Assembly: GCA_032622095.1 (NCBI GenBank)
Contig: CP136066.1
Location: forward strand, 94,571,319-94,635,318
Direction of reading: 5' to 3'
DNA length: 64,000 bases
Source of the DNA: Siphonodentalium dalli
Taxonomy: Eukaryota; Mollusca; Scaphopoda; Gadilida; Siphonodentaliidae
Each line of letters begins with the position of its first letter. Within the stretch, counting starts at the first letter, position 1. Under the pieces are notes generated by a model, which was not told the DNA's origin, did no database searches, and worked only from the letters and a program-made list of their open reading frames with translations. A program made the translations under genes and the position numbers. Positions 5,311 to 44,560 of this stretch are shown piece by piece.

Positions 5311-6527
5311 GCACCCGTATTCATCACCACCAATTTTCGTTGGGGCACGTGTATTCAACGGAATCATGGCAATTTACTACATATTATATATATGACACGT
5401 TGAAGACAGGATAGAACTACTAAGTGTCGACTTTGTCGCCAAGTCTTGCGGCCAAGAACACGTCATGGCATATAGATTACGCCAACGACACGATTCCGGT
5501 CATGCCCCAATAATTGCCGCAGATTTTCATCAGACTTGAATCACAGTCAAATTTAACTCGTGCTCCGCTTTTGAGAGATCCCCGCGAAGATCGCAACTCA
5601 TTCGATAAAAGATTCTCGCTTAAAATCCGCATTGCATGTGTTCTCTCTGTCAGGGTTAATGAACGAGCTACTGGACATTCGTAAATTAGATATCCAGTCG
5701 CGACTCCATTAACCAACTTAAAACACAGTTGTATAATATACAAAGAGAAATTACATTTATGCAGCTGAAACATTACGATAAATATCGATAAATGAGACGT
5801 TTACGAAAGTTTTTCGGAAGAAAAAAAAATAAAGTCATTGGCTGACAACAAAACCACGCCATTGATACGGCTCGTGCGAGTAGAAATTGCGTGTGGACTT
5901 TGTCGTGAACACAATAGACAAAATACCACGAGGTACAACTTTGTTCGAAAAATAAACGTCGATGTTCGCAAACCTAATAAAATATATGTTTTGGGCTGAA
6001 CAGATATAGTGTATATACGTAATATATACTGCTGTCGTAATTGAATCTGTATTTTGGTCACGTATGCATATAACATATGTTTAACCTGATTCATGTTGTC
6101 AGAATATTCTTGTCCCAGAATAGAAGAAGAACAGTAACACCATTACTGCTTACGTTAGGTTTCAATTTGATATATACCCCTGATATGCATATAAACAGCA
6201 CACCTCTATATGCAAGTAATTGGATTACGCGGGGTACATACGAACTGTGCATATGTTTAGACTCGACGTGACAGAGAACTATTTTTCGGTTAGAGGCCTC
6301 CTTTGGGACCTAATTGTGCATACACTTGGGGACATGAGCGTTCAAGATTACACATATCGACTTGTGGTTTAAAGCATGAACGTTCTAGATTACGAATGTT
6401 GACTTGTGGTAAAATCGTGGTATAAAGTGCCCATTCGAAGAAATAGATGGTCGAAGTAGAACAAAGGAGCTGGGTTTTAACCCTACCGTGACTGGGGCTT
6501 CCTGGAGTTTTGCGAAAACCCCGTGCC
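5311..6527. other. no gene recognised
   Basis: Several open frames of 64-98 codons (5477-5773 minus, 5801-6094 minus, 6077-6271 plus, 6290-6529 minus) have no recognisable domain and do not match the missing ABCG8 C-terminus. Sequence looks unique apart from a short duplication around 6330-6410. Confidence 0.4.
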
Positions 6528-6530
6528 AAT

Positions 6531-6599
6531 GCATTCTCTTTTATATGCGAGTCTCCAATATGCGAGGTAGCTTCGCATATATAAGAGAATGCATTGGCC
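6531..6599. repeat. hairpin-forming inverted repeat
   Basis: Arms CCAATGCATTCTCTT...ATATGCGA and TCGCATATATAAGAGAATGCATTGG flank a short loop. A diverged partial copy (GTGCATTCTCTTATATA) follows at about 6631-6648. Probably a small MITE remnant. Confidence 0.55.
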
Positions 6600-6768
6600 T
6601 AACAACATTTACCTTGACCTTGTAAGCCAGTGCATTCTCTTATATATACAAAGCCCCTATGTGAGACTCGCACATATAATAGACTGCGCTGGCACATAAT
6701 ATGTAATGCTGCACCAGCGCAGCTCCCGCCATGAAAGGGTTTAAGACATGTATACTGCGACTGCTTAC

Positions 6769-7036
6769 CGAAAACGATACTGTTAAGGTTGATGAAGTAG
6801 CCGCCCGCCATACCAAATAGGGCGTAAAGAGTCTGCGCCGAAAAGCATGAAATTTGGTAACTTGTTGAGACTGCCGCACTGAACATAGCAAGGCAACGAG
6901 CAGCGAAGATATTCAGGTACATGGCAGCATATAACTTCATGAAGATTACGATGTTGTCTTACATGCCAGAGAGAATGTAGACTGGAATCATGTAGACTGT
7001 CACAAACAACGTATGGAACGGGAACTCGCTCAACGT
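6769..7036 (-). CDS. ABCG8-like: ABCG8-like exon 8 (membrane domain) with in-frame TAA
   Basis: Acceptor ATTTCAG precedes 7036 and donor GTAAGC follows 6769. The exon begins in phase 0 and ends in phase 1. It reads [25 protein letters not shown], stop, then [20 protein letters not shown] and continues to the [13 protein letters not shown] region. The reading frame on both sides of the TAA (6959-6961) aligns without gaps to the ABCG8 family, so the stop replaces one residue rather than marking a frameshift. The 113-codon open frame that starts after the stop is the exon's second half plus intron read-through. Confidence 0.85.
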
Positions 7037-10000
7037 CTGAAATATTTAACCCTTTGTATATAAATGGATTCTCCCTTTCATTTATAATAGTAAACAGCGG
7101 AAATAGTCTATTATTCGTCAGGAGGGGTTTACAAATCTGTTAACCGGGTGCCACTTGATTAATCCACAAACCTGCACTTTCTGTCTATAAGAGTACTACG
7201 ACTTGTATCCTGCAAAATCTCGTCCAACGCATGGCTATATATACTAAGGAAATTTAACTGTAACAGTTATAAACACAGTGTGTGAGCAAATCTTTATAAA
7301 TTCCCTTAGTAAATACAGCCAAACAAACTCCAAATATTTTAGAACGTTTGACCGTTGCATATTCATTCATATCCATTTATATCCAAACAACTAAAAATAT
7401 CTGTTTATTCACTGGTATCAATATCTATAATTAAATTCAATATAAATATTAATATAATCAGGAAACTATAGTGAAATACTTCAAGTCTTTATATAGCCAT
7501 TACTGCTTGTATTCTGTCAGTCAGGGGTGCCGGCTAGACGGCCATCATTGGCCACGGCATTCCACACAATACATATACAAATTGACATGTATTATAATGT
7601 ACTAATGTATAATGTATTGTATTGTGGAATAAAATATTATCCTATCCTATCCTTGTTAAAATTGTGAATGTCACTCTATATCAGGGTTGGGGTAATCGTA
7701 ATCAGTAATCGTAATCAAAGTAATCGATTACAAAATTTGGAGTAATCGTCTGTAATCAGTAATCATGACATTTCTTGATTACAAGTACTTTCAAATGTAC
7801 CTGTAATCATGATTACATTTTGATTACTTTTTGATTACTTTTACTAAAATATCCATATTAATGGCTATTGGATACTCATAGTCTCATAATGTAGTACTGT
7901 GGAGTGTACAAAGATACAAACAACATATTAGAAAGTTAGTACAATTTTGTCATGTTTTATATTAGTGCTACAGTGTGTATGTACATTCTGGCAGTGGACA
8001 CAGATAACAACACACAATTGTTGAATACAGCATGAATGGCAATAAACTTGTGATACAGACAATGAAATGTTCTAATATGAATAAATAGGCTAGCCGACTT
8101 CAATAAAGATTAAATTGTGTTGGGACTGCTGCAGACAATGGCTGTATAATCACACTGGTACAATAGGGCTCATTAACTGAACAAAGCAGGTGTGATGTAC
8201 ATCGGTAGACCTAATTAGCTGGTTTGTCATTTACAGCACTCATGGAGTTAAGCCTCATTTAATCCTCATCAGGATTAACAACGGATGATCATCAAATAAA
8301 TCTTAATGTTATCTTCATTGTGTTGGGTATTGAATCTAACAGAACATGCAAATAATTTATAATGGTTTCTGGTGATATTTTCATAAATATTATGCTTTAG
8401 TTTGAATGCATGTAAGAAAATTAAAAATATATTAAAATATATTTACATAAATAAATACACATAAACATAATGCATTCCCAATAAGTTGGTGCATAACTTC
8501 ATGATGAAACCTTTCCAATACATGTAAATGTAAAAAGTTTATATGTTTATTGCTTGCTTCTTTCTATTGTTTCAGTCGTTTCTTGTTTCCATGTTATGCA
8601 GTGATGTCTTTATTCAATCAAATTTGATATGTTAATTTGAATTATTTCATTATTTATTCATATGCGATCAAAATGGTTGGAAACTAACAATTGTAATCAG
8701 ATGTAATCAAAAAGTAATCGATTACATTTAATAAAGTAATTGTAATCGTAATCGATTACATTGAAAAAATGTTATCAGTAATCGTAATCATGTAAATCAA
8801 AAGTAATTGTAATCGTAATCGATTACATTGGCATGTAATCGCCCCAACCCTGCTCTATATATGGTCAGGAAATTCAGCGTTTAGTCTCATCCACGTTATT
8901 GCAAGGAATTGTATTATGGACCTCATCCAGCTATACCAGATTGTTCGATAGTGTTGATTTTGAATAGTGGATATTCAACTGGGAGATATATAGATTCATC
9001 TGAGGGAAGATATGTTCATTTATCAAAACCGCATGGTCTGGTTTGGCGATACCTTCGCGTTTGGCGATACCACGTACACGGGGGTGATATACCTTTGCGA
9101 AGAAATAGGCTGTCCGTGAATAAAGGCCGTCTTGAAGCTCGAAATATAGATATTTCTTTTCTTTATGACCTGAAAGAAAGTCAACATTCTGTGTTAACAT
9201 GCACCTAATACGCACACGTTTAAAACACTCGTAAACTATGTCTGTTATTTCGTTAAAAACACTTCTTCAAATATCTCCGTTATCAATTATCTCATATATA
9301 TTTTGAAGACCTCTGTCTGTATGTATGTTTGTTTGTTTGTTTGTTTGTCTGTCATTTATACAAATCTACGATTCTCGACCGATCGGGACGAAACTTGGTA
9401 CGTGTGTGTAGTTTGACCAGGCGGTGAACGTTGTCGTATTGGCGAGCCCGTGCGGCGCCCGCTTCGCGCATGCGCAGACGAGATCTCGGAAACGGGTGGA
9501 GCTATCGACTTGATATTTGGTATGTGAATGTATCTTGCCCCGGATGCGAATTTTATCGGGTCGCCGAGCCCGTGCGACGCCAGCTTCGCGCATGCGCAGA
9601 CGAGAAATCGGCAACGGGTGGAGCTATCGACTTGAAATTTGGTATGTGAATGTGTCTTGCCCCGGATACGACTTTTATCGGGTCGCCGAGCCCGTGCGAC
9701 GCCAGCTTCGCGCATGCGCAGACCAGATCTCGGAAACGGGTAGAGCTATCGACTTGAAATTTGGTTTTTGAATAGCCCGGACAACGTCGGGCTCATCGGC
9801 TAGTCTCATATATATTTTGAAGACCTCTGTCTGTATGTATGTTTGTTTGTTTGTCTGTCATTTATACAAATCTACGATTCTCGACCGATCAGGACGAAAC
9901 TTGGTACGTGTGTGTAGTTTGACCAGGCGGTTGACGTTGTCGAATTGGCGAGCCCGTGCGGCGCCCGTGCAGCGCATGCGCAGACGAGATCTCGGAAACG

Positions 10001-13000: not shown

Positions 13001-16000
13001 TGGAAATTTTCCAACCTTAGGGGGGTGACAGGTTGGAAATTTCCAACACTTGGAAAGCTTGTGACCTGGTCCCTCCCCCGTGGCCAGTCAAAAACTTCTA
13101 GTTAATTTAAGAAAACAATATTGTCATACAATTGGTCAACATTGTCATTGGAATTGTCATCAGTTGGAAATTTTCCAACCTAAGTGGGGGTGTAGGGTTT
13201 GGAATTTCCAACAGTAGGAAGGCTTGAGGTTAGTCTAGATGTTAAGATTTTGCGAAACAATATTTTACTACATTTGGTCAAACTTGTAGACATAAATGGT
13301 CATCAGTTGAAGAATTTTCCAACCTGAAGGGAGCATGAGGTTTGAAATTTCCAACACTAGGAAAGCTTCAGTTGAGGCCAGTCTAGATGCTAGGATTTGC
13401 GATTTTCTTGTATATAGTTTTCAAAATTTTCTCACACCGGGCCAAACAACCATGGTCGGCCCGGTGTTTCCTGGTCTGTTGTCGGTATCTGTGTGCATTT
13501 GTCTGGAATTAGATCACTTTTTTCAGGTTAAAATATCTTAATGTTCTCATACTGGGAAAAAAGCATGGCTTATGAATATATAGGAAATTAGGCCTGAGCA
13601 TGAGGTACAAGGGGGGGGGGGGTGCAAATGGAATTATGCAAAAAGTTATGTTGGTGCGATTCCGACTGAAGGGGGGGGGGGGTGCAAATGGAATTATGTA
13701 ACAAGTTGTGTTGGTGTGATTCCGACTCAAGGGGGGGGGGTGCAGTTGGAAATTCCCAAGGTGAACACCCCCCCAGCGGAGACCCTCTAGCCACATCCCT
13801 GTGTATATTCTGCCCAGATGGAGGCGATCACAACGAAATCCCTAAATAGCCCGGACGAAGTCGGGCACATCAGGGCACATCAGCTAATTTCCTATTTCTA
13901 TATTTCGCTCTATTTCGCCATTTCGCTTCATTTTTTTATTCCACTATTTCGCTGTGTTTCATATTTCGCTTTTTCGTCGTATTTCATATTTCGATAATTC
14001 GCTATATTTGACATATTATGTGATATAGGATTATGTGATATCCTATATTCTGCTATTCAATCGAACATCCCGTGCCACGTGTTACTGAGATTGACTATCA
14101 TTAGATACCTCATCACGAACCCGATTACATATTGTTTGCTATATAATCATTGGAGTATTGACTACAACAGGATTGAAGGCCTTTATCATTGAATAAATAC
14201 GAGGCATGACTTTAGCATTGAATAAATACGAGGCATGACTTTAGCATTGAATAAATACGAAGCATGTTTCTGAGAAAAAAATCATCCCTTGACGCGTATA
14301 GTTGCTTTTCTTGAAAAGTAATTTTGAACACATACTGGTTGCGAATTCAGTATAGTAATTTATAGTTCGAAATATATACTGCCTTGCTATGGCCTGGTGC
14401 AGTAGTACCAAAATGCATCCAAGATGATTCTGGTGGCTTCATAGATCATGCCATGAATCTCTACTCTGTATAATGCCCTTAGCCAGAGTAGAGATTCATG
14501 GCACGATCAGGGACGTGGAAACAGGGGAGGTGTTTTCCAACCAACCAATAATTAATGTAATTAATTTTTTTTACCAAGAGTTTCTACCTGTGGTCAACAT
14601 TTTGGATTGAAATGGTCATCATTTTCCAAACTTAGGGGTGCATGCGAGGTTGGAAATTTAACTCAAGAGAGGGGTTTGACAGATGTGTTCAGCGGACAAC
14701 TCTTCAATAAACATTTAACTAACACTGGTTATTTTCTTAAAACCAAATTCTTAAAAAAAAGAAGATACTATTAGATCAATTAAGATAATTTCTTTAAAAA
14801 AAAACAACTTTCTGATGTACGTATACATAAGCCAATGAGCTCGAGGATGACCATATATGGATACACGTTATTAATCATGTGAAGTAACCCCATACGATCT
14901 CTCATTCCAGTTTGGTCTAGGTTCAGTTGAAAGAAGATCAAGCCAAGACATGCGGACATGACGAATGCCTCGATGACCTGCATTCCCAGAAAGCCGTAAT
15001 CTTCAAGAATATTTCTCAGGGCACGTCTGAAAGGGAAAACATCAAATGACTACGATCGTCGTTTATTTTTCCCAACATTGGCCAAATTTTTCAATATTTG
15101 GAAATTTCATGCCTGACGACAATAGTTGGAAATTTCAGATTAAATGTAGGTTGAAATTGTTCTGGCAGTTAGATTTTCTAACCAGAATATTAAAGTAAAA
15201 AGTTGTTGTTTTAGGCCAAAGGTAGAAATTTTTCTAACTTTTGGTCGGTTTGAAATTGCTAACAATTGGAAATTTTGAGGTACCGTGCCAGTTGGAAACT
15301 TTCAACCAAAGAGGGTGCCAATGGGATTTGGCTCCCGGACTTTCAGTCTGGTTCAATGTGAAGTGCTGTTGGAAATTCCAAGCTGGTCACCCCCCAATGG
15401 AGACGTCTAGCATTACGTCCCTGATTTCCCGGCCTTCTGATAGTTCAGATTTTACTGGACATTTTGGCTCGGAATCAGACATGCCCAGGAATTGTGTGAA
15501 AAATGTATTTGAATGATTGTGTTCGTTTCGATGTTGATGTGGGGCTCAGAAACTTCGTACTGACAGAATGTCTGAATAGAAAAATGCAATTATAGTCACT
15601 AATTTTTGGGGGCATTTCATAGATCCACACAAAAGCCAGAAGTCCGAGGAGCGTTCGAACTCTGCAATTCAGAATTGTATATCTCAAATTGGAAATACAT
15701 ATAGCCATTTCAGACGAATTGCCAGAAAAGTTTCTTTACAAATTGTGTCAGTGCGGTACTGAGAGCATTGGTATATGTGGTTTCGTACCTGCACAGAACC
15801 GACAGCTGAGTGAAAAACCGGGGTGTGTCATCATAATGGAAGCATCTGTCCCAGAACTTGCGGTCGTTATCCGTGACTGTGTCTAAACTATCACTGTCAA
15901 CAGTCTGTTGTTTATTCCGATGAGCATCGACCAGGGCTTCGGTAATTCTCGTGGATTCTTCTTCGGCAGACTCCGTTGTGTTATCAATCGTGGCAATATC

Positions 16001-19000
16001 AACTGGAATAATAATTCGTTTGATCGCATAACGAGAGAAAGATAGCAAGACATCGAGCAAGAGGGTGATATACATGTACATGTATGAGAGAGACAGTCAT
16101 GAAAAATTTAATAAAATTTTAAATGTTTTACATTATGCATCATTAATATATATTTGATTTTTTTTTCTTTTACAATGTAACCATTACTACAAGAACTTGT
16201 GTTGAAGTTATCGTTTGGCTAATTTATAATGTAATGTTTAATCAACAGGCAGATACAATCTTTTAATGCCATTCATATATACTTACTATAAAAATCACAA
16301 GGATTCATAAGTTCTGGACACGGGTAGCCTACATTTGTGAAGTAGTCAATCATTTTGTCTGCATCGCCGTAATATACAGTATTTCCCTTTGAAAGTATGA
16401 TCATCTGGTCCAGCAGCTCGAATATTGACGACCTTTAATTAGAAATTTGGTGTGTGTTCGAATCCGAGTAGCGTTGGTGCCGTGAAGTCACATGACTTTT
16501 CCAGCAAAGTGAATAACCATAGCAATAACATAGTAACACACGTTACAATTTACATGAACGCATGGCTGAACCTGGCTATTATCTGAACATTTCCAGCTCG
16601 TCAATGAGAATTTTAATATATAGAACGATTGTGATATTTTGCGTATTTGTAATCTGGGGTTGCGAACAATATGTGGACATGTAACACATACAATGTTTAC
16701 AAATTGTCTATTTATCGGATGATTGTGTCACTGGTATACTGACCAGGCTATGGTCTTACAATCTCGTCCAAATACGGATACGATAGGCGAGAATCGCATG
16801 CGTTTTGATATGTCGATGCCGTCTGGAGAGTTTGGCGGGACCAGCATCCCGTCTCGATTTGCTCAGTCTACCCTTGATGCTATAAAGTGGTAGCCGCGGG
16901 CGCTTATATATAGAGTTGTTATATATAGAGTTGCGCGACCTGACTGCCTCGATATCAATTTGAAAAAGGGGTGACGTTGCTTAACGCGCCTGCGGCGCTT
17001 CAATAACAGTTTGAATTTTGTGTTTCCCAACAGGTCTTAGATCTTTAATGCTGCACCAGCGCTGCATGCTCCCGTCATGAACGGGTTAAAACCATATTTT
17101 ACTCACTTGGGTCGACCAACAACTGTATCCCTATGCTGATCCTCCTCCGCTCCCCTCCGGACACCCCCCGCGTCTCGGAATCCCCGACCAGCGTATTACT
17201 AACGTGAATGAGGCCGAGCTCCGTGATGACGTTGGTCACCTGACAAATGAGACAGCAAAAACAGTCACGTATACGTGCATGACCATACACACGCTATATG
17301 AGCTGCATGTCCACAAACCAACACACGAACGGTAGGATAATATCCCCCTTGTAGGAGCATGTTACAAAAAGAAAACCAACAGGAATGGCATATATGTGTT
17401 CGTCGGCTTGTTTCCCATAGCAATCGGAGTTATATACGAAGTCAGGTGGTCATCACACAACTCTAACTGGAGTGACCATTCAGAAACAAGGTGAGAACAC
17501 AAATTACGATGTCGAACCGTCTCTTTTTAAAGCACATACTTATCTGCATGATCGCTAACACCACTAACTTTACAGTTTATTTTTACTGAAACCCGCCCAA
17601 ATGAATAATAGACCATTCCGTTGTATACTTATATAACTCAATGGGAGAATTCATTCAGTAAATAAAGGGTTAATGTTATAGGTAATTTACCCTTTCTTCA
17701 ATCATATGCCCTGTGAAGTGTCTCGGGAGCTTAAGTTTCGCGACGAACATTAGCGTCTCCTTGACCGTCAGGTGGGCCAGATGCCTGTCATCCTGTCGGA
17801 CGTAGGCGGCACATGTCTGCATCATAGACTGGGTCCTTGGCGTTTCATTTAGGTATATCTCACCAGTGGTAACCCCGCCTTCTGCGCGACAGGCAATTAC
17901 GTCTAGCAGCGTTGTCTTTCCGCTACCTTAATTTCAATATTTTATTTGGGTGATCCAATAAAATAAACAACATATATAGGAAGCACCAATACTTTGAAAT
18001 GTGCAAGTGAATAAATTGAAATAACTTATAATATTTAAGTCATATATGAGTTTATAGTTTAGTAAATTTGTTGAGGTAAATTTGAGTTTATAACTGTAGT
18101 TTTTCCTTATTGCTCGCGTAATTGACGGATATATAGACACATTTGGTTTGTTTATCGATGCCAATGTTTGAGGGGTTAACCGATATTTGCGCTTTAATTT
18201 TGTACTAAAGTTGCACATGAATGACATGTTCTATCTGATACGTTATAGTTATTGGTATTGTGTAACTTCCAATCTCGATATGTAAACTGTGTGCACTTAT
18301 TCTGAGTTTAGTGATTTCTTTTATCAAATTTGTTAACTTTAAGATGTGAACCACTCCACTGATGTGTTCAGAACGGAATAAACAAAGAATAGTGCAAAAA
18401 ATAAGTTATTTTCATAAATTTGACAACAAAATAGGCAGAAAACAGCGTAATTTAAAAAAAATGAATTACATGCAGTGGTTATAAAATGAATTACATGCAG
18501 TGGTTATAAAATGAATTACATGCAGTGGTTATAAAATGAATTACATGCAGTGGTTATAAAATGTATTACATGCAGTGGTTATAAAATGAATTACATGCAG
18601 TGGTTATAAAATGAATTACATGCAGTGGTTATAAAATGAATTACATGCAGTGGTTATAAAATGAATTACATGCAGTGGTTATAAAATGAATTACATGCAG
18701 CGGTTATAAAATGAATTACATGCAGTGGTTATAAAATGTATTACATGCAGTGGTTATAAAATGAATTACATGCAGTGGTTATAAAATGAATTACATGCAG
18801 TGGTTATAAAATGAATTACATGCAGTGGTTATAAAATGAATTACATGCAGTGGTTATAAAATGAATTACATGCAGCGGTTATAAAATGTATTACATGCAG
18901 TGGTTATAAAATGAATTACATGCAGCGGTTATAACATGTATTGGCGGAATCATTGCCGTAATGTTTATGTCCAATAAATCGTCCCGAATGAAGTAGTAAA

Positions 19001-22000: not shown

Positions 22001-24276
22001 GGATAAGAATTCCCAGCTTTGGAGACAAACACGTGAGCTGGACATCGGCATATGTAATGTTTGAAACATTCCGATTAGTGGGACGCTTCTACAAAGAAGT
22101 GTAGGAAACTGTGTTGGTGTGAGCGAGATAGCTTTATCTGACGAAGAGACGGAAACTGTTCCAGATAATGCTGAATGTGGCAAATCAGAATAAGTTCAGG
22201 TACTGTTATTTTTATTCATGGAAGTCATAATATGACTATTCGGCACACCTATGTATACGGTTACGGCCAGTAATGACGCTTAATGGAGAATGTATGTCGA
22301 AATGCCACATCTCGATTATTAGTTGTGGGTTTACATCCACCCAAAAGGCTACGATTTATGCTGGAACTAATAGATGGCTTATATTATGCACCGTTTCGTC
22401 CATACAGATCGATATTATGACCAAAAGTTGAAATTATTATGTGAAAATATCGACTTCTTTTCAATTTCTGACCGCCAGTTTGGCCGCCATCTTCACTGTG
22501 AGAATTTGCCAAACTCAAATGAATACTTCATATCAATGTCCCATTTGAACATGTAATTGTGGGCAGAATTCGCATAACAATAACGCCAATCGTAAGAAAG
22601 TAAAGGAATGTGAGCCTGTTTAAAATTTCGGTCGCCATTTTGGTCGCCATCTTCGATTTGGAAAACATGAAATGCATGAAATGCAAGGTAATTACTTCAC
22701 CTCAGTATTTCCAACTCAACTGTCAGCATGGGTGGAGTTGTCTCGACAATAATTCCCAATGATGTGAATATGAGGGAATTTCGGTGATTTTTCAAAATGT
22801 GTTCGCCATTGTGGGTGTCATTTTGGATTTGGGAGACTTTTATTTGGATATGGAACAAGGACAGTTCTTCGACTAAGTTTTCACAACTCACAATAGTAAG
22901 CAGGTGTGGAGTTGTCATGACAATAACGCTCACTGGTGTTAAAATCGGCGATTTTTCTATTTCTGGTGGCCATTTTGGCCGCCATCTTGGATTTGGGTTA
23001 ATATTCCTCAGCTCAGGTATAAGAGGAATCCTAGCTCGAGTATCTCCTGCACATATATATGCATGGGTGTTGTTATGATAGTACTAACATTAATTGATTC
23101 GAAACATTACATCGCGTTATTAGCGTCGATTTGGCTTTGACTTATTATACCGGCATTTGGGAAAACGTGATACCGGATAAAAATATCCCACAATGAATGT
23201 ATATTGTGGTCCCCGTGTGTTCGTCAATGACTCTTCTATACGTTAAATGTATAACATCACGACAAGATGCCAATATTTTATCACATAGACAAACGAAAGT
23301 TGGTAAAATGTCAGAAAAATAGCATATTTTCACATTCGGTGGCCATCTTGGCCGCCATATTAGATTCTGGTGTCGGATTTTTGGCTAATTTGTAAGGGTT
23401 GTATATTAGCATAACGAATCGAGCGGAAAACAAGACCGCATGTGATATCATCTTTACTATAGCGGCGATCAAAAAGACCTGGTGCATATAAAAAAAATGG
23501 CAGCCATGATGGACGCCATCTTGTCTGGAGTATCTGCGGCCACTTTATTTCTTGTTAACAACCGAAAAAAATTAGAGGAGGAGGAGACATTAAGAAAGAA
23601 AATTAGTGGGGTGAAGTTGAGTCCTGGGGGGGGGGGTTGAGAGGTCGACCAATATATCCTGGACTAATGGCGATTTATATATAATCGCGACCACAGGCGG
23701 CATGCGTTGTTTCGATCGAGTATCATATTTAATCTGAAGGGTGATAACTCTATTTAGAATGTACTTTGACGAAATAACGGAGATTTGTATGAAAGAAATT
23801 GCAACACCACCATTGCTCAACTCTGGTGATATCCCATATCCTGATATTCAATCAAACATCCCGTGCCATGTTTTACTCAGATTGACTAGCATTATATTCC
23901 CCATCGCGAACCCCGATTACATATTGTTTGTTATATAATCCTTGGAGTATTGGCTGACATAATTATATGCACATATCGCAAGTGGTCTGGATACACCAAT
24001 CAGATAAATTACAGTATGGTAAGGAAACATATATATACCTGAACTTCCTAACATGGCGGCAAGTTTTCCGCTTTGAACATCGAATGAGATTCCATCCAAT
24101 ACTTTCTTTGGGCCAGTAAAAGAATCGCATTGCGCAGGGATTGCTATTCTTGAAAGCCGACGTATAATGCTCTGCACAGAGTTGTCTATTGTATATGACA
24201 CATCCCGGACTTTTATGTCGATGCACGGTCTCTCGTCCAGTGTGACATCAATAGCACACGTGTCGAATGTCGTCAT
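6769..24276 (-). CDS. ABCG8-like: ABCG8-like sterol half-transporter gene (eight exons seen; possibly a pseudogene)
   Basis: ABCG8 pairs with ABCG5 to export sterols in vertebrates. This locus encodes the same layout: N-terminal nucleotide-binding domain, then membrane domain. Seen in order: Walker A GSSGSGKTT split across exons 1 and 2; signature VSGGERRR in exon 3; the [14 protein letters not shown] stretch in exon 4; the linker in exon 5; membrane segments in exons 6-8, ending in the [10 protein letters not shown] region. Exons 2, 3, 5 and 8 follow human ABCG8 more closely than ABCG5, judged from memory of the family. All placed junctions have GT/AG sites and matching phases except exon 3 to exon 4, where a phase 1-to-2 exon carrying Walker B (LDEPTSGLD-type) is not visible. 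Exon 8 contains an in-frame TAA. The last ~70 residues are not found. About 500 residues are accounted for against roughly 670 in human. Introns carry many mobile elements. No ABCG5 neighbour is seen in the window. Family assignment is strong; functionality is doubtful. Confidence 0.85.
7037..7681. other. intron DNA with a possible LINE 3' tail near 7510-7655
   Basis: Intron 7 of the ABCG8-like gene. Around 7510-7655 there is a run ending TTGTGGAATAAAATATTATCCTATCCTATCC in pieces (AATAAAA followed by a short ATCCT repeat), typical of a non-LTR retrotransposon 3' end. No coding part is attached. The LINE call is tentative. Confidence 0.35.
7682..8852. mobile_element. hAT-like MITE with perfect 8-bp target duplication
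   Basis: Inverted ends CAGGGTTGGGG (7682) and CCCCAACCCTG (ending 8852). The flanks are identical 8-bp direct repeats CTCTATAT at 7674-7681 and 8853-8860. An 8-bp duplication with CAGGG-type ends fits the hAT superfamily. Subterminal regions on both sides are dense in GTAATCGTAATC / GATTAC strings, many centred on the palindrome AATCGATT, which look like clustered transposase-binding motifs. No transposase is encoded. It lies in intron 7 of the ABCG8-like gene. Confidence 0.9.
9093..9169 (-). CDS. ABCG8-like: ABCG8-like exon 7
   Basis: A 77-nt exon between acceptor CTTTCAG and donor GTATAT. It reads [20 protein letters not shown] then YFFAK, matching the family's 'E-x-x-x-Y-E-L-x-D-G-L-Y-x-x-x-x-Y-F-F-A-K' stretch at the start of the later membrane segments. 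It joins exon 6 by a split Cys codon (T + GT) and exon 8 in phase 0. Intact in this window. Confidence 0.85.
9290..9803 (+). mobile_element. Helitron-like element A1 (first of a head-to-tail array)
   Basis: Begins TC(TCATATATATTTTG) after a host A and ends with hairpin AGCCCGGACAACGTCGGGCT, six bases, then CTAG. These are Helitron-type ends: 5' TC, 3' hairpin plus CTRR, A/T target. A (TGTT/TCTG)n microsatellite sits about 40 bp in from the 5' end. Then come a unique block (CGATTCTCGACCGATCGGGA...) and copies of a 122-bp unit. Non-autonomous: no Rep/helicase. The layout resembles bivalve pearl/HINE elements. Lies in intron 6 of the ABCG8-like gene. Confidence 0.75.
9804..10379 (+). mobile_element. 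Helitron-like element A2, 3' end missing
   Basis: Starts directly after the CTAG of A1 with TCTCATATATATTTTG and the TCTG/TATG microsatellite. Contains four 122-bp units. It breaks off inside a unit at 'GGAGCTATCG', where the next element's TATATATATTTTGAAGACC head begins, so its hairpin/CTAG end is lost. Confidence 0.7.
10380..11003 (+). mobile_element. Helitron-like element A3
   Basis: Same 5' head and microsatellite, several 122-bp units, ending with the hairpin and CTAG at 11000-11003. An extra internal copy of the 3' hairpin region at about 10855-10880 suggests fusion of two elements or an end-bypass event. Confidence 0.7.
11004..11390 (+). mobile_element. Helitron-like element A4
   Basis: Abuts A3 without a gap. 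Short member with two 122-bp units and the terminal hairpin plus CTAG at 11387-11390. Confidence 0.7.
11391..11968 (+). mobile_element. Helitron-like element A5
   Basis: Abuts A4. Head with (TCTG)n, about four units (one shortened near 11735), 3' hairpin with one change (GTCGGGGTC) and CTAG at 11965-11968. Confidence 0.7.
11969..12528 (+). mobile_element. Helitron-like element A6
   Basis: Abuts A5. Its 3' end is duplicated: the hairpin segment occurs at about 12447-12470 and again at 12500-12528, only the latter followed by CTAG. Confidence 0.7.
12529..13887 (+). mobile_element. Helitron-like element B, second family, split by a MITE
   Basis: Starts TCTATTATATATTGTGGAAC right after A6's CTAG and ends with hairpin GCCCGGACGAAGTCGGGC, a short duplicated GGCACATCA, then CTAA and a host T. 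With A1's left flank A, the whole 9290-13887 block occupies one A/T target. Its own length is about 320 bp, because 12761-13801 is a nested MITE. Confidence 0.65.
12761..13801 (+). mobile_element. MITE 'GTTGGAAATT' family, most complete copy
   Basis: Twenty-base inverted ends CAGGGATGTGGCTAGAGGGT (12761-12780) and its complement (13782-13801), flanked by TGTATA on both sides as a likely target duplication. The interior is a series of diverged sub-repeats built on CAGTTGGAAATTTTCCAACC, with poly-G/poly-C tracts near each end. No protein coding is recognised; open frames at 12917-13794 are repeat artefacts. Partial relatives occur at 14508-15423, 25665-26075 and 30393-32000. Superfamily not assigned. 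Confidence 0.8.
13895..14030. repeat. simple TATTTCGC-type repeat
   Basis: Degenerate tandem of 'TATTTCGCT' strings with no other feature. Confidence 0.7.
14037..14166 (+). repeat. ~130-bp dispersed repeat, copy 1
   Basis: The segment from GATATCCTATATTCTGCTATTC to CTTGGAGTATTG-like sequence recurs in the same orientation at 23828-23957 with scattered mismatches. The two copies flank ABCG8-like exons 2-6. Confidence 0.75.
14188..14273 (+). repeat. 29-bp triplicate
   Basis: Three direct copies of a GCATTGAATAAATACGAGGC-based unit, the last with AAGCATG. Confidence 0.85.
14444..14508. repeat. hairpin-forming inverted repeat
   Basis: Arms of about 25 bp, GATCATGCCATGAATCTCTA.. and ..AGAGATTCATGGCACGATC, around a ~15-bp loop. 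It directly abuts the left TIR of the MITE at 14508. Confidence 0.75.
14508..15423 (+). mobile_element. 'GTTGGAAATT' MITE sequence on both sides of ABCG8-like exon 6
   Basis: Left inverted end CAGGGACGTGG at 14508 and right end ACGTCCCTG ending at 15423. Left part (14508-14700) carries the GGTCATCATTTTCCAAACTT motif. Right part (about 15065-15423) carries TTGGAAATTTCATGCCTGA and later motifs. ABCG8-like exon 6 lies between them. This is either one element that contains an exon or two separate truncated insertions. The order of sub-motifs differs from the 12761 copy, which slightly favours rearrangement or two insertions. Confidence 0.6.
14827..15026 (-). CDS. ABCG8-like: ABCG8-like exon 6 (first membrane segments)
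   Basis: Acceptor CCCTTTCAG before 15026, donor GTATAC after 14827; 200 nt. It reads [40 protein letters not shown], then [20 protein letters not shown] and ELIGL. The family has the same 'RD-x-x-(A/G)LL' loop after the first membrane helix and a second hydrophobic helix beginning here. It joins exon 5 by a split Arg codon (AG + A). No defect seen. Confidence 0.9.
15789..16002 (-). CDS. ABCG8-like: ABCG8-like exon 5 (linker between NBD and membrane domain)
   Basis: Acceptor ATTCCAG before 16002, donor GTACGA after 15789; 214 nt. It starts DIATIDNTT after a split Ile codon, matching the 'D-L/I-T/A-S/T-I-D' stretch that follows the F-Y of exon 4, runs through an acidic, variable linker ([15 protein letters not shown]) and ends [10 protein letters not shown], equivalent to the family's 'F-x-x-L-x-x-R-R' just before the membrane domain. 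Confidence 0.85.
16287..16432 (-). CDS. ABCG8-like: ABCG8-like exon 4 (end of nucleotide-binding domain)
   Basis: 146 nt with acceptor TTAAAG and donor GTAAGT. It reads [48 protein letters not shown], corresponding to the stretch just after the switch histidine (H-Q-P-R-S-x-I-F). It enters in phase 2, whereas exon 3 leaves in phase 1, so these two cannot be joined directly. Confidence 0.9.
16433..17106 (-). other. ABCG8-like intron where the Walker B exon is expected but not seen
   Basis: In family members about 40 residues with Walker B, the D-loop and the H-loop lie between exons 3 and 4. No LDEPTSGLD-like translation was found in this 674-bp stretch in any minus-strand frame. A short ILIDEL translation at about 16595-16616 lacks the following P-T-x-G-L-D and is followed by a stop. 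Reading by eye could miss a highly diverged exon. Confidence 0.5.
17107..17239 (-). CDS. ABCG8-like: ABCG8-like exon 3 (ABC signature)
   Basis: 133 nt between acceptor TTTGTCAG and donor GTGAGT. It reads [52 protein letters not shown] is the ABC signature (C-loop) in its ABCG form. Starts in phase 0 and ends in phase 1. The continuous open frame stops at 17099 because intron sequence is read. Confidence 0.93.
17691..17926 (-). CDS. ABCG8-like: ABCG8-like exon 2 (second half of Walker A to Q-loop)
   Basis: 236 nt, acceptor ATTAAG and donor GTAAAT. It completes Walker A (SGKTTLLDV) and reads [20 protein letters not shown] then [20 protein letters not shown] and [26 protein letters not shown] is the Q-loop region. 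The sequence has no start codon in frame, so it is easily missed in ORF lists. Confidence 0.93.
18461..18945. repeat. 25-bp minisatellite (about 19 copies)
   Basis: Near-perfect tandem of ATGAATTACATGCAGTGGTT + ATAAA, with a few variants (ATGTATTAC, GCAGCGG) interspersed. Located about 0.5 kb upstream of ABCG8-like exon 2 in intron 1. High identity suggests recent expansion. Confidence 0.95.
19166..23132. mobile_element. ~4-kb foldback element with very long inverted arms
   Basis: Left arm reads AATCGACGCTAATAACGCG from 19166 and the right arm ends with its complement at 23132. Matching blocks, diverged but collinear in inverse order, run through nearly the whole arms, e.g. 19264-19860 vs 22400-23040 and 20420-20830 vs 21340-21760. 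The centre near 21100-21290 is itself bracketed by GGTCGGTATGG / CCATACCGACC. The arms carry repeated CCAAGATGGCGGCC-type motifs. No recognisable transposase. It lies in intron 1 of the ABCG8-like gene. Two alternatives are a foldback/long-TIR DNA element or an inverted duplication of a ~2-kb repeat. Confidence 0.8.
23133..23827. other. intron DNA, no feature recognised
   Basis: Contains GGCCATCTTGGCCGCCAT at about 23341 and ATGGACGCCATCTTG at about 23509, the same GGC-CAT motif seen in the foldback arms, plus a G run near 23625-23637. No gene seen. Confidence 0.4.
23828..23957 (+). repeat. ~130-bp dispersed repeat, copy 2
   Basis: Same segment as at 14037-14166, same orientation, roughly 85-90% alike by eye. 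It sits just downstream of exon 1's donor within intron 1. Confidence 0.75.
24039..24276 (-). CDS. ABCG8-like: ABCG8-like exon 1 (N-terminus to Walker A)
   Basis: Donor TTCAG|GTATAT after 24039. It reads [20 protein letters not shown], then [20 protein letters not shown] and GSSG, i.e. the 'V-R-D-x-x-Y' start of the domain through the first half of Walker A, which finishes in exon 2 (split Gly codon). The first ATG is at 24276 (MTTFDTC). That leaves only about 20 residues before the conserved start, shorter than in vertebrates. Alternatively 24284 follows a CAG acceptor and an upstream exon exists. Confidence 0.85.
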
Positions 24277-36338: not shown

Positions 36339-37307
36339 TTACTGTACTGTATTTACATATACTTCAGCAGCATTTCGACCAGATTTTCTCAGACAGAAGA
36401 AAACTTGTTTCAGTTTGTTACGAAATTCTTGATATATACAAGAATATATACACACATTAACGAAACTGTTTGCATTCCCTATCCATATAGATGAGAAACG
36501 GACGAGCATTGGCGTTTGGTAAACCAGTGTAGGATCAACTAGCCTAACACCTGCCAAGATAATAAAGGGCAACCAGCATGCGCCGAAACAAATCGTTGTG
36601 ACAAGTGTCAGTCTCAATGCTTTTTTCTCTCTCTGTAGAGATGCGGGGTTAGTTTTAACATCTCCAGGAATCTGAATTTTTCTCAGAACCCTTATTATTA
36701 TCACACCAGAAAATATAAGCACAATACCACACGGAAGCATGATGGTAAAAAACGGTAGTAGGACAGACCAGAGCTTCACCCAACAAACGGTGCAAAATCC
36801 AAAACCTACCGAGTACTCAACAATTGTCGCCTGAATAAAAATAGGACATACAAATACACTACTACAGTAAAGCCAGATCAGTGCGCACGCGAAAAGGCAC
36901 TTCCGTCCCGAAATCATCCTGTATTTGAATGGACGAATCACGGCGAAGCATCGAACAAGGCTTATTGCTGTCAGTGTTGTCATGGACACGCTAGACGAAG
37001 TCACATGTAACAGGCCAGAGAAGTAGCAATACGGCTCACCAAACAACCATACGTCATTGACTATTGTCGCCACTAGTGTCGGAAAACCAACAGACAGCCC
37101 GACCATTAAATCTGCAATGCTGAGGTTAACCAAGAATATTTTGCTGACTTTAGTGAGTGAACACATCCTTGGAAGAATGCAAACGTTGGCTACATTTCCA
37201 ACGACGATTAATGTTGTTACTGCGCTAATTACACACATCCTGTAGATACGTGACGCCGTTGAGTTGTCGGTCGAAGCAATATTCAACGCTGTCTGGTTGC
37301 AATTCAT
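36339..37307 (-). CDS. class A (rhodopsin-like) G-protein-coupled receptor, single exon, 322 aa
   Basis: Intact intronless reading frame with seven hydrophobic segments at about residues 24-48, 57-82, 96-118, 137-158, 177-206, 233-253 and 270-291. Landmarks: two N-glycosylation sequons at the N-terminus (N4, N15), GN in TM1, NLSIAD in TM2, Cys94 before TM3, Trp145 in TM4, Pro192 in TM5, FGACWLP in TM6. Departures from the family: the DRY position reads V118-R119-C120, and the NPxxY position reads N284-V-C-I-Y288 (Pro replaced by Val). Position 3.32 is His101, so it is not a typical amine receptor, which needs Asp there. The C-tail is short and basic with a CLRKSG motif. The ligand is unknown; probably a lineage-expanded orphan of the plasma membrane. 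The start ATG is the first in frame, directly ahead of the glycosylated N-terminus. No neighbour gives functional context. Confidence 0.93.
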   Translation of the reverse strand: MNCNQTALNIASTDNSTASRIYRMCVISAVTTLIVVGNVANVCILPRMCSLTKVSKIFLVNLSIADLMVGLSVGFPTLVATIVNDVWLFGEPYCYFSGLLHVTSSSVSMTTLTAISLVRCFAVIRPFKYRMISGRKCLFACALIWLYCSSVFVCPIFIQATIVEYSVGFGFCTVCWVKLWSVLLPFFTIMLPCGIVLIFSGVIIIRVLRKIQIPGDVKTNPASLQREKKALRLTLVTTICFGACWLPFIILAGVRLVDPTLVYQTPMLVRFSSIWIGNANSFVNVCIYSCIYQEFRNKLKQVFFCLRKSGRNAAEVYVNTVQ

Positions 37308-37930
37308 CCTTTCATTGGACCTTGAAAATGGCGTGACCTGTGAAGGGAAATAATTGTCACAATAGATTTATATACAGCCTCGATTACACAGTTGTAACAC
37401 TCATGCATTTTCAGTAGTGACAATTCCTCCTCGATGATCGACTCATGTTGCCGTAGTCAACAAGTAAGACGTATTTATTAAGGAGGTTTAGATTGAAAAA
37501 AACAACTTATAAATTCGCCCGCCATAACATACTTTATTATAACCATTGTGTTCACCGAGGGTTATACTGTCTTTAAATTGGACGAACGCCATCATGTGCA
37601 CATCGCATGTTAGAAAGTAGTTGCCCGTCGATTAACTATTTACCGGGATATATAGTCTTCGAAATATTGCACACCCTGCTGACTTAACAATCTGGCGCGA
37701 AGTCAAGGAGCGATGACAGCATTGTCATTACATTCCTTGCGCGAGGCCAGAATTTTCCGACCTATTTCCTGGCAAATAGTATTCGAACTATCGCAACTAT
37801 CTCACCCACTATAATACTGAAATGTTCATGACCCTTCATAAATACATAATACAATTTACACACATGTATTGGAGTTACCCAATATATAATTATCTTTGTT
37901 GCACTAACTTAATTTTTTTTGCCGCATTAT
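37308..37930. other. region upstream of the GPCR
   Basis: Likely 5' flank of the minus-strand GPCR. No clear core promoter motif can be asserted. No other gene seen. Confidence 0.35.
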
Positions 37931-41460: not shown

Positions 41461-41660
41461 GACAGTTGTTTTACAATTAAAACAATTAATTAAAGTTTAT
41501 GTCAATATTTCACGTTAACCCACTTCGAAGACATTGAGTCCATTTAAAGTACCAGTAGCTTTGGTTCGTACGTACAATCGTACATAGCCTAATCTGAATT
41601 TGTGACTTCACCAAATTTTAACAATTAGATGTAATTGGAAGAGGCCAATCCAAATCGGTC
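41461..41660. other. spacer between LINE and minisatellite
   Basis: Contains a near palindrome TTTTACAATTAAAACAATTAATTAAAG; nothing else recognised. Confidence 0.3.
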
Positions 41661-41679
41661 AACGTACAACCTCTCATGA

Positions 41680-42775
41680 CATCACCAACAACCATCACAA
41701 CCACGCCGATCTCCCGAACATCACCAACAACCATCATCACCACACCGATCTCCCGAACATCACTAACAACCATCATCGCCACACCGAACTCTCGAACATC
41801 ACCAACAACCATCATCACCACACTGATCTCCCGAACATCACCAACAACCATCATCACCACACCAAACTCGCGAACATCGCCAACAACCATCATCACCACA
41901 CCGATCTCCCGAACATCACCAACAACCATCATCACCACACCGATCTCCTGAACATCACCAACAACCATCATCACCACACCGATCTCCCGAACATCACCAA
42001 CAACCATCATCACCACACCGATCTCCCGAACATCACCAACAACCATCATCACCACACCGATCTCCCGAATATCATCAACAACCGTCATCACCACACCGAT
42101 CTCCCGAACATCACCAACAACCACCATCACCACACCGATCTCCCGAACATCAACAACCATCATCACCACACCGATCTCCCGAACATTACCATCAACCATC
42201 ATCACCACACCGATCTCCCGAACATTACCAACAACCATCATCACCACACCGATCTCCCGAACATCACCAACAACCATCATCACCACACCGATCTCCCGAA
42301 CATCACCAACAACCATCATCACCACACCGATCTCCCGAACATCACAAACAACCATCATCACCACACCGATCTCCCGAACATCACCAACAACCATCATCAC
42401 CACACCGATCTCCCGAACATCACCAACAACCATCATCACCACACCGATCTCCCGAATATCACCAACAACCGTCATCACCACACCGATCTCCCGAACATCA
42501 CCAACAACCATCATCACCACACCGATCTCCCGAACATCAACAACAACCATCATCACCACACCGATCTCCCGAACATCACCAACAACCATCATCACCACAC
42601 CGATCTCCCGAACATCACCAACAACCATCATCACCACACCGATCTCCCGAACATCACCAACAACTATCATCACCACACCGATCTCCCGAACATCACCAAC
42701 AACCATCATCACCACACTGATCTCCCGAACATCACCAACAACCATCATCACCACACCGATCTCCCGAACATTCTC
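41680..42775. repeat. 39-bp minisatellite (about 28 copies)
   Basis: Unit ATCACCAACAACCATCATCA + CCACACCGATCTCCCGAAC. A few copies are 36 bp or have CGTC, TATC or AACTCG variants. Because the unit is a multiple of three and stop-free, a 378-codon frame on the minus strand (VGDVREIGVVMMV repeats, 41618-42754) and a long plus-strand frame both stay open. No splice signals, non-repeat domain or signal peptide support a gene. Confidence 0.93.
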
Positions 42776-44560
42776 CTATTGTTGGTTATATAAACGTATT
42801 CAAATCATTTTTTGATCGATTGATGAAGGCAAGTAGACCTATAAAGACTTTCTAAGCTTCAAAGTTGTTACGGACGGGTGGGCGTTGAACGCTCTCCCGA
42901 GGATGTAATTGTAGGTGAATGAAGGTACATAGAGTATACATTTGACATGCGTGGTGAATTTTTCTCTGTGAGGTGCACCTCACAGGTGATGATGTTGAAA
43001 TGAGTATAAATTGTATTTGTGAATCAGAATTTTTTTTAATTCCATGGCCAATCATCACAGTATATAATACATAAAGTGTAAAGATAAAACAATGAGACAA
43101 GTCATGTAGAGGTCGTCTTCCTGTCGCCACCCTAAAATTAACGATATTGCTATTGATTCTTTCAATAATAAGTCCTATCAAGGCATTTGAGAGCTGGTTA
43201 CTTATTCTTGTATCCATTTGTTCAAGATTAAATCAAGTCGTTATGACTATAATTATTTATTAAATATTTCATCTTGATTAGAATTAGTCAGTTTAGAACA
43301 GCATTGAAACATGTGTAATGGTGAAAGTGGACAGTTTGATATGTCATTTAGATCATCGAATATTTTTCCATAAGTGAATTTGTGAGCTGAGATGAATTTC
43401 TGTCAGTCACCACACAAGGAAAAATGGTCTACACAAAACGGACGGTGTCATCCAGCCAATTCATTGTATTCTCGGAATCCCATAGATATGTTTTCTACCT
43501 ATCTATGCCATGTAACACTGTTTCGACAAATCATCGAACGTCGACATGACGGTGGGTGCACTGTATTTGGCAACACCACTCCAGAAGCTTGAAAGTCACA
43601 GTTTTGACTTAGACGTTTATGGATCAACACAACGAGGCCCAAACTGACAATAAAATTATTATTAGACTCATGTCATATTTCAACACAGATCTCAATATTT
43701 GTTGATTGACTTGGAGATTGCCCGTCAAAAATGACGGATAAATGAATGTACTTGTTACTTTCTGGTGGTCGCGTGCATGACCAATTTCTTATTTATATTA
43801 AAAATGGAATGGCTAATAGTATGCTTTTCTTGTCACGGCATGGCGGCGTAGGAATACTTTATTTCACTATAAAGAAATGAATTTACCCCTCCCGCTTCAA
43901 CATGTATGTACGCATGGGCGTAGCCAGTTTGCTCTAAGGCGGATTCGTCAGCTGAGAGCAACAGCATAATTGATGCTGCGAGCCCAGTAGATGGGTGGAT
44001 ATCCAATATGACGGACGCCTCACACACCAACACCTTCAGAATTCTTCATGACGAACATTATGAATAATTAAATTTCATTTCCCTAATATAAGATATAATC
44101 AAACCACTGCACGGGTAGTTCGTGTGCGACATATGGATATACTATGCAAGTATTGTCTAAGTGGATTAATGCCAATAGTTTAGTACGAAAGGTTCTGGTC
44201 ATCTGAACGCCTACCAATTCTTCAGTTCGAGGGTATCCGGGTCACAACATTAATATTTAAAATAGCACCCATTTCCAACAGTAATTGAACGTTCGACCCT
44301 ACAACACAAGCACTTCCACGACAAAATCAGCACCCTTTGTTATATATTCACACATAACCTGATGACAAATTAATTTTGCGCCCCTTACCAATGTTATTGT
44401 AGAACGCATGGAAGTTTCGTCTATGCAATGGCAAAGCAAGTGTGGGTTTGTGTGCGACGTCATTTCGACAAACGTCATAAGAAATAGTGTGGTCAGTGGT
44501 CCAAATTTGGGCTACATTAGACGCATGGTTTAAAAGACAAAAACGCGCCAAAAAGCGTGA
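42776..44560. other. no gene recognised
   Basis: Open frame 42852-43217 on the minus strand (121 codons) has no recognisable domain. The rest is AT-rich without repeats. Confidence 0.4.

Follow-up and report, generated by a model that had tools for sequence, protein, structure and literature searches.

Probable recent death of an ABCG8-like gene copy in Siphonodentalium dalli through a repeat insertion in place of the Walker B exon

The closest described relatives of the gene studied here are ABCG8 (sterolin-2) and the animal ABCG half-transporters in general. Two close copies of this gene lie on one contig of the scaphopod Siphonodentalium dalli. One of them, called P in the following, resembles these transporters over residues 21-631 including the Walker A, signature, Walker B and H-loop residues, whereas the other one, the window copy, differs from ABCG8 in having no Walker B/D-loop/H-loop exon and in carrying a premature stop. 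ATP hydrolysis is not expected of a nucleotide-binding domain that has lost its Walker B, D-loop and H-loop residues. With respect to the way in which the exon was lost, the deletions associated with L1 and Alu insertions are comparable cases. The same holds for the SVA insertion-associated deletion reported in PMC4229983, where as here a mobile element with a fixed 3′ and a truncated 5′ end stands in place of deleted target DNA. The repeat in S. dalli differs from L1, Alu and SVA in that some copies contain 76-bp tandem units, and it is assigned to none of these families. Capture of filler DNA at double-strand breaks, reported for pieces of mitochondrial DNA (PMC2567098), also combines a deletion with inserted DNA, but the insert at our locus ends at the repeat's own terminus, which argues for insertion of an element. 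Natural inactivation of ABCG8 is known from elephants and manatees, in which according to PMC7671337 ABCG5/ABCG8 were lost; there the gene itself is gone, whereas in S. dalli an intact copy remains. A literature search found no title about the gene of S. dalli, which is weak evidence.

The window, i.e. the whole stretch of 64,000 nucleotides that was analysed, corresponds to C6:94571319-94635318 in a genome of 2.23 Gb on 9 contigs. Using tblastn with human ABCG8 together with an inspection of splice sites, an ABCG8-like gene of nine exons was found on the minus strand (Table 1); the human query agrees with the ABCG8 sequence in the PDB alignment. Walker A and the signature are present in this copy. 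If PDB chains are ranked by score, both the window exons and P find ABCG8 first, P aligning over residues 21-631 with 460 bits in comparison to 287 for ABCG5. On this ground both genes can be classified as ABCG8-type by descent, in preference to ABCG5, ABCG2 or ABCG1. The weak splice acceptor of exon 2 was considered as an additional, third lesion and rejected, since P has a near-identical acceptor. Upstream of exon 2, at 18458-18942, there is a 25-bp tandem array, TTCATTTTATAACCACTGCATGTAA, which occurs in P as well, the two arrays differing in extent. Elsewhere in the window we noticed an open single-exon gene for a rhodopsin-type GPCR (36339-37367, minus strand; Pfam 7tm_1, E = 5.6e-31, full model) and at 41606-42793 a long tandem repeat which is open on both strands, reads NHHHHTDLPNIT on the plus strand and looks like a simple repeat and not like a gene.

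Table 1. Features of the window copy and the Walker B exon of gene P (window positions unless preceded by C6).
Feature	Position	Strand	Remark
Exon 1	24039..24276	-	ends LGSSG; donor GTATAT
Exon 2	17691..17926	-	Walker motif exon
Exon 3	17107..17239	-	signature VSGGERRR; ends in phase 1
Exon 3-exon 4 intron	16433..17106	-	Walker B exon expected here
One end of TTAA-type MITE	17040..17089	-	also in P, which retains more
5′-truncated copy of dispersed repeat, 295 bp	16745..17039	-	replaces 452 bp of P
G/GTCAG, last base of lost exon and 5′ splice site	16739..16744	-	joined to 3′ end of repeat
Exon 4	16287..16432	-	ends NPCDFY
Exon 5	15789..16002	-	
Exon 6	14827..15026	-	transmembrane domain begins
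Exon 7	9093..9169	-	
Exon 8	6769..7036	-	transmembrane; premature stop inside
Nonsense codon TAA	6959..6961	-	in exon 8; CAA (Gln) in P
Exon 9	-1426 to -1688	-	beyond left end of window
Walker B exon of P	C6:94746234-94746357		124 bp, between exons 3 and 4

The initial annotation had argued from the splice phases that an exon must lie between exons 3 and 4, and this argument is right. Exons 1 to 3 sum up to 607 nt, one base over, and the first base of exon 4 completes a codon; direct joining of exon 3 to exon 4 shifts the frame and runs into a stop after 10 codons. The 674 bp in which no Walker B exon had been visible coincide exactly with this intron, and the absence was borne out by alignment, Pfam, tblastn and the TIGR00955 model. 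In an alignment to 16433-17103 that tolerates frameshifts, five ABCG Walker-B segments reached only chance scores (23-29 on the gene strand, 22-24 on the opposite strand); dinucleotide shuffles of the gene strand average 23-26, and depending on the query the gene-strand score is reached by 6 to 47 of 60 shuffles. Such an alignment, which the initial annotation had named beside a spliced transcript as able to refute its claim, placed no Walker B exon in the interval. Pfam gave no match in the three gene-strand frames of 16433-17103, where the control is strong only in part: the peptide of P's Walker B exon plus exon 4 is assigned to ABC2_membrane_7 through the exon-4 part (E 1.8e-11), the Walker B part alone finding only AAA_21 with E 0.0015, below the family cut-off. 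Neither the alignment nor Pfam therefore supports the idea that the exon is still there in concealed or decayed form.

TIGR00955 served only as a ruler, as the scores stay under its curated cut-off. On this model exons 1-3 span positions 29-185 and exons 4-9 positions 228-611, leaving a gap of 42 positions (186-227). P is continuous over 35-611 and has 42 residues more than the window exons. Relocation or inversion of the exon nearby was also considered. In 294 kb none was found, the best tblastn match of the Walker B segments having E = 0.14, and genome-wide there is no close copy except that of P. In the genome-wide search with the peptide of P's Walker B exon and exon 4 (20 of 20 candidates scored) 11 protein-level matches were obtained; the Walker B part reaches 93% in P only, and the other matches covering Walker B stay at or below 56%. 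The window copy hence possesses no complete nucleotide-binding domain, as the exon for Walker B, D-loop and H-loop is not found.

On the same contig, about 104 kb beyond the right end of the window, P begins in inverted orientation. A genome-wide protein search, in which all 36 candidates were scored, gave 17 matches: seven are the window gene, seven the inverted set at C6:94745010-94752117, and three belong to a distant relative at C6:61.39-61.40 Mb. Among the seven exon matches of P six show 85-96% identity and one, which runs beyond its exon, 68%; a TAA counted in the match of exon 8 lies before the exon. The gene model of P (L033+L032+L034) has ten exons with GT/AG introns and encodes 632 aa with a single terminal stop, and all nine exons shared with the window copy are equal in length. 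The protein carries the Walker A, signature, Walker B and H-loop residues and covers ABC_tran from 1 to 137 of 137 and ABC2_membrane from 1 to 210 of 211 positions in Pfam. Presumably it is this intact gene which supplies the function. In the distant ABCG relative (C6:61391501-61404500; L035, L036) the Walker B segment and the next exon form one open stretch without an intron, which is present at this place in both P and the window copy.

An alignment of the DNA of P with the window reveals what stands in place of the exon. Homology stops at 17040 and resumes at 16744, and between these breakpoints there are 452 bp in P and 295 bp in the window. The 452 bp of P consist of the rest of a MITE, intron, and the 124-bp exon except its last G, which is shared; homology sets in again with this G, followed by the donor GTCAGT of the lost exon. 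The repeat's 3′ end and the end of the exon have the G at 16744 in common. The MITE end on the left side is found in both copies and is therefore older than the exon loss and predates the duplication. Deletion via the MITE alone was rejected: as 17089-17040 are shared with P, the MITE only marks the left edge. Other members of this TTAA-flanked palindromic MITE family lie at about 6480-6745 of the window, likewise inside the gene, and in the flanks, full copies having about 240-270 bp. The initial annotation had listed a recent exon loss among the possible causes, and this is supported by the intact paralogue and by a mobile-element copy located exactly between the breakpoints.

The 295-bp insert belongs to a dispersed repeat family. 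Genome-wide there are at least 61 matches including the insert itself, some of them several per place, on all nine contigs; this is a lower bound, because 40 of 624 candidates were scored and P's own copy was outside the list. The identity of the other matches is up to 97-100%. Eight copies chosen among the best matches were examined with their flanks, which together with those of P and the window makes ten. All ten have the 3′ end TAAGACCATAGCCTG in common and lose their similarity directly after it, and each of the nine others is identical to the window insert over the last 170 bp. The 5′ starts differ in the insert, L037, L043 and L044; L038-L042 and the copy of P extend further upstream, the 5′ start thus not being reached in six of the ten. 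Shared 3′ ends (10/10) with differing 5′ starts (4/10) are typical for 5′-truncated retrotransposon copies. The occurrence on all nine contigs and the identity of the ten copies over the last 170 bp make the family look recently active in this genome. For the insert itself its identity to other copies points to a young insertion, and a single-source amplification of the family could give the same likeness among copies.

Two other classifications of the repeat were rejected. Against a known RNA family stands that for L034, L037, L038 and L040 no Rfam match was obtained at E up to 1, and that the repeat folds no better than shuffles (z -0.06). With regard to a Helitron, all ten copies end in CTG plus purine at the 3′ side, but a constant 5′ end and a regular T after the 3′ end, as the end rules of these elements demand, are absent. 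The copy beside gene P (L034 1475-2180) comprises six identical 76-bp tandem units. L043 is followed by GTCAGT, the same six bases as window 16743-16738; beyond these the flanks differ, and chance or a target preference may account for it.

Taking this together, the window copy is very probably a recently dead unprocessed (duplicated) pseudogene in which the insertion of a repeat deleted the Walker B exon, with P as the intact counterpart. Introns homologous to those of P occur in blocks along the gene, as expected for an unprocessed pseudogene, and in comparison to P there are two inactivating lesions, the exon replacement and the nonsense codon. From the end structure of ten copies among the best matches we infer that the repeat would have arrived by a retrotransposon-like (target-primed) insertion, which produced a 5′-truncated copy and deleted the target in a single event. 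The TAA in exon 8 would have arisen as a separate mutation, and the intact P may have made the loss of the window copy tolerable. The deletion could also be separate from the insertion. It is possible, though rather unlikely, that the exon was first deleted by end joining and that the repeat fragment is captured filler DNA or a later insertion. Two bases at each joint (TC and GG) are common, the insert is near-identical to the copy 3′ of gene P, and capture at breaks is documented (PMC2567098). On the other hand, the insert stops exactly at the 3′ terminus of the repeat like nine other copies, and this is unexpected for a random fragment. A templated insertion from P's 3′ flank was once favoured due to the shared bases at the joints, the near identity and the fact that the counterpart flank of the window gene has no copy; it was dropped because the insert belongs to a dispersed repeat and stops at the 3′ terminus of that repeat.

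The two copies lie inverted to each other on one contig with about 144 kb between them, and collinear homology in inverted order connects positions 662-21587 of P with window 30880 to -3289. The inverted segmental duplication, which holds the gene and its flanks, thus consists of window -3289 to 30880 and C6:94735980-94756905, while the 100 kb right of the window have only scattered repeats in common with it. Divergence of the aligned non-coding DNA is 3.7% upstream (5′ side) and 6.4% downstream (3′ side) of the lost exon, the lower value perhaps resulting from gene conversion. That the two copies are in fact haplotypes placed in one contig by mistake, or that the exon disappeared in a collapse, appears improbable. 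The data come from one assembly, and such a divergence can be reached between alleles in very heterozygous marine animals. However, the inversion, the distance of about 144 kb and the end of collinear homology at about 30.9 kb and -3.3 kb of the window speak for a local inverted duplication rather than for two haplotypes, as judged from the sequence, and what stands in place of the exon is a dispersed element with its usual end. The assembly collapse considered by the initial annotation looks unlikely: a copy of a dispersed element that stops at its own 3′ terminus occupies the place of the exon, and the only close copy of the exon genome-wide is at P. A segregating null allele is a further possibility beside an assembly error.

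The initial annotation also described exons 1-7 as intact. This is borne out, although the TAA in exon 8 (6961-6959), which interrupts the frame within the transmembrane domain, had been missed. All nine remaining exons are free of indels and have kept their splice sites. In 1773 coding bases shared by P and the window copy there are 0 indels, compared to 62 indel events in 9065 non-coding columns (10 collinear blocks; unaligned stretches left out). On one unconstrained branch 6.1 indels would be expected and P(0) is 0.002; with the slower upstream introns alone P(0) is 0.058. At the mean rate, P(0) > 0.05 requires that the time without constraint was less than about half of the copy's age. 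Between the copies Ks is 0.062 and Ka 0.020, and the resulting Ka/Ks of 0.33 (95% 0.18-0.59) mixes constrained and neutral time. With Ka/Ks well below 1 and zero indels, constraint on the window copy was long-lasting or is still acting. Of 28 amino-acid differences (stop included) the human ABCG8 residue is kept by P in 7, by the window copy in 2 and by neither in 19; the excess in P is suggestive and not significant. Exons without indels and preserved splice sites place the death of the gene late in the time since the duplication, and for a large part of that time the window copy was probably under constraint. The intactness which had been called unusual for an old pseudogene fits with lesions that are recent in comparison to the duplication.

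The initial annotation had considered a catalytically dead paralogue; a paralogue it is, but the dead transporter does not hold, because the frame is broken after exon 3 and there is a nonsense codon in exon 8, so that as assembled no full-length half-transporter can be read. It is very improbable that the copy still acts as a truncated or decoy protein or as a regulatory transcript, through skipping or a cryptic exon in the repeat. The coding sequence is without indels, skipping from exon 3 to exon 5 is in frame and gives 391 aa until the TAA, and three cryptic exons in the repeat would together with the retained donor restore the frame into exon 4. Yet the same intron has 18 in-frame AG..GT combinations, among which three are unremarkable, and every such product is without Walker B and ends at the TAA within the transmembrane domain. 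Least probable of all is that the element was adopted as a replacement exon, with for instance 16822-16744 (acceptor after ctccag, surviving donor) bringing exon 4 back into frame, and that an ATPase-dead truncated product was retained to regulate the intact partner gene, a reading which, if true, would account for the unharmed remaining exons and splice sites.

The window copy is thus best called a recent unprocessed pseudogene and not a working but catalytically dead transporter. What looked like a conserved ABC transporter that merely lacks the catalytic exon is a probable young pseudogene, the cause of which can be followed at base resolution as both breakpoints are readable, and the death of this gene is ordinary in kind. 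For annotation it is a warning: a gene predictor could skip the exon and report a "catalytically dead ABCG8". The gene to study in S. dalli is the intact paralogue P.
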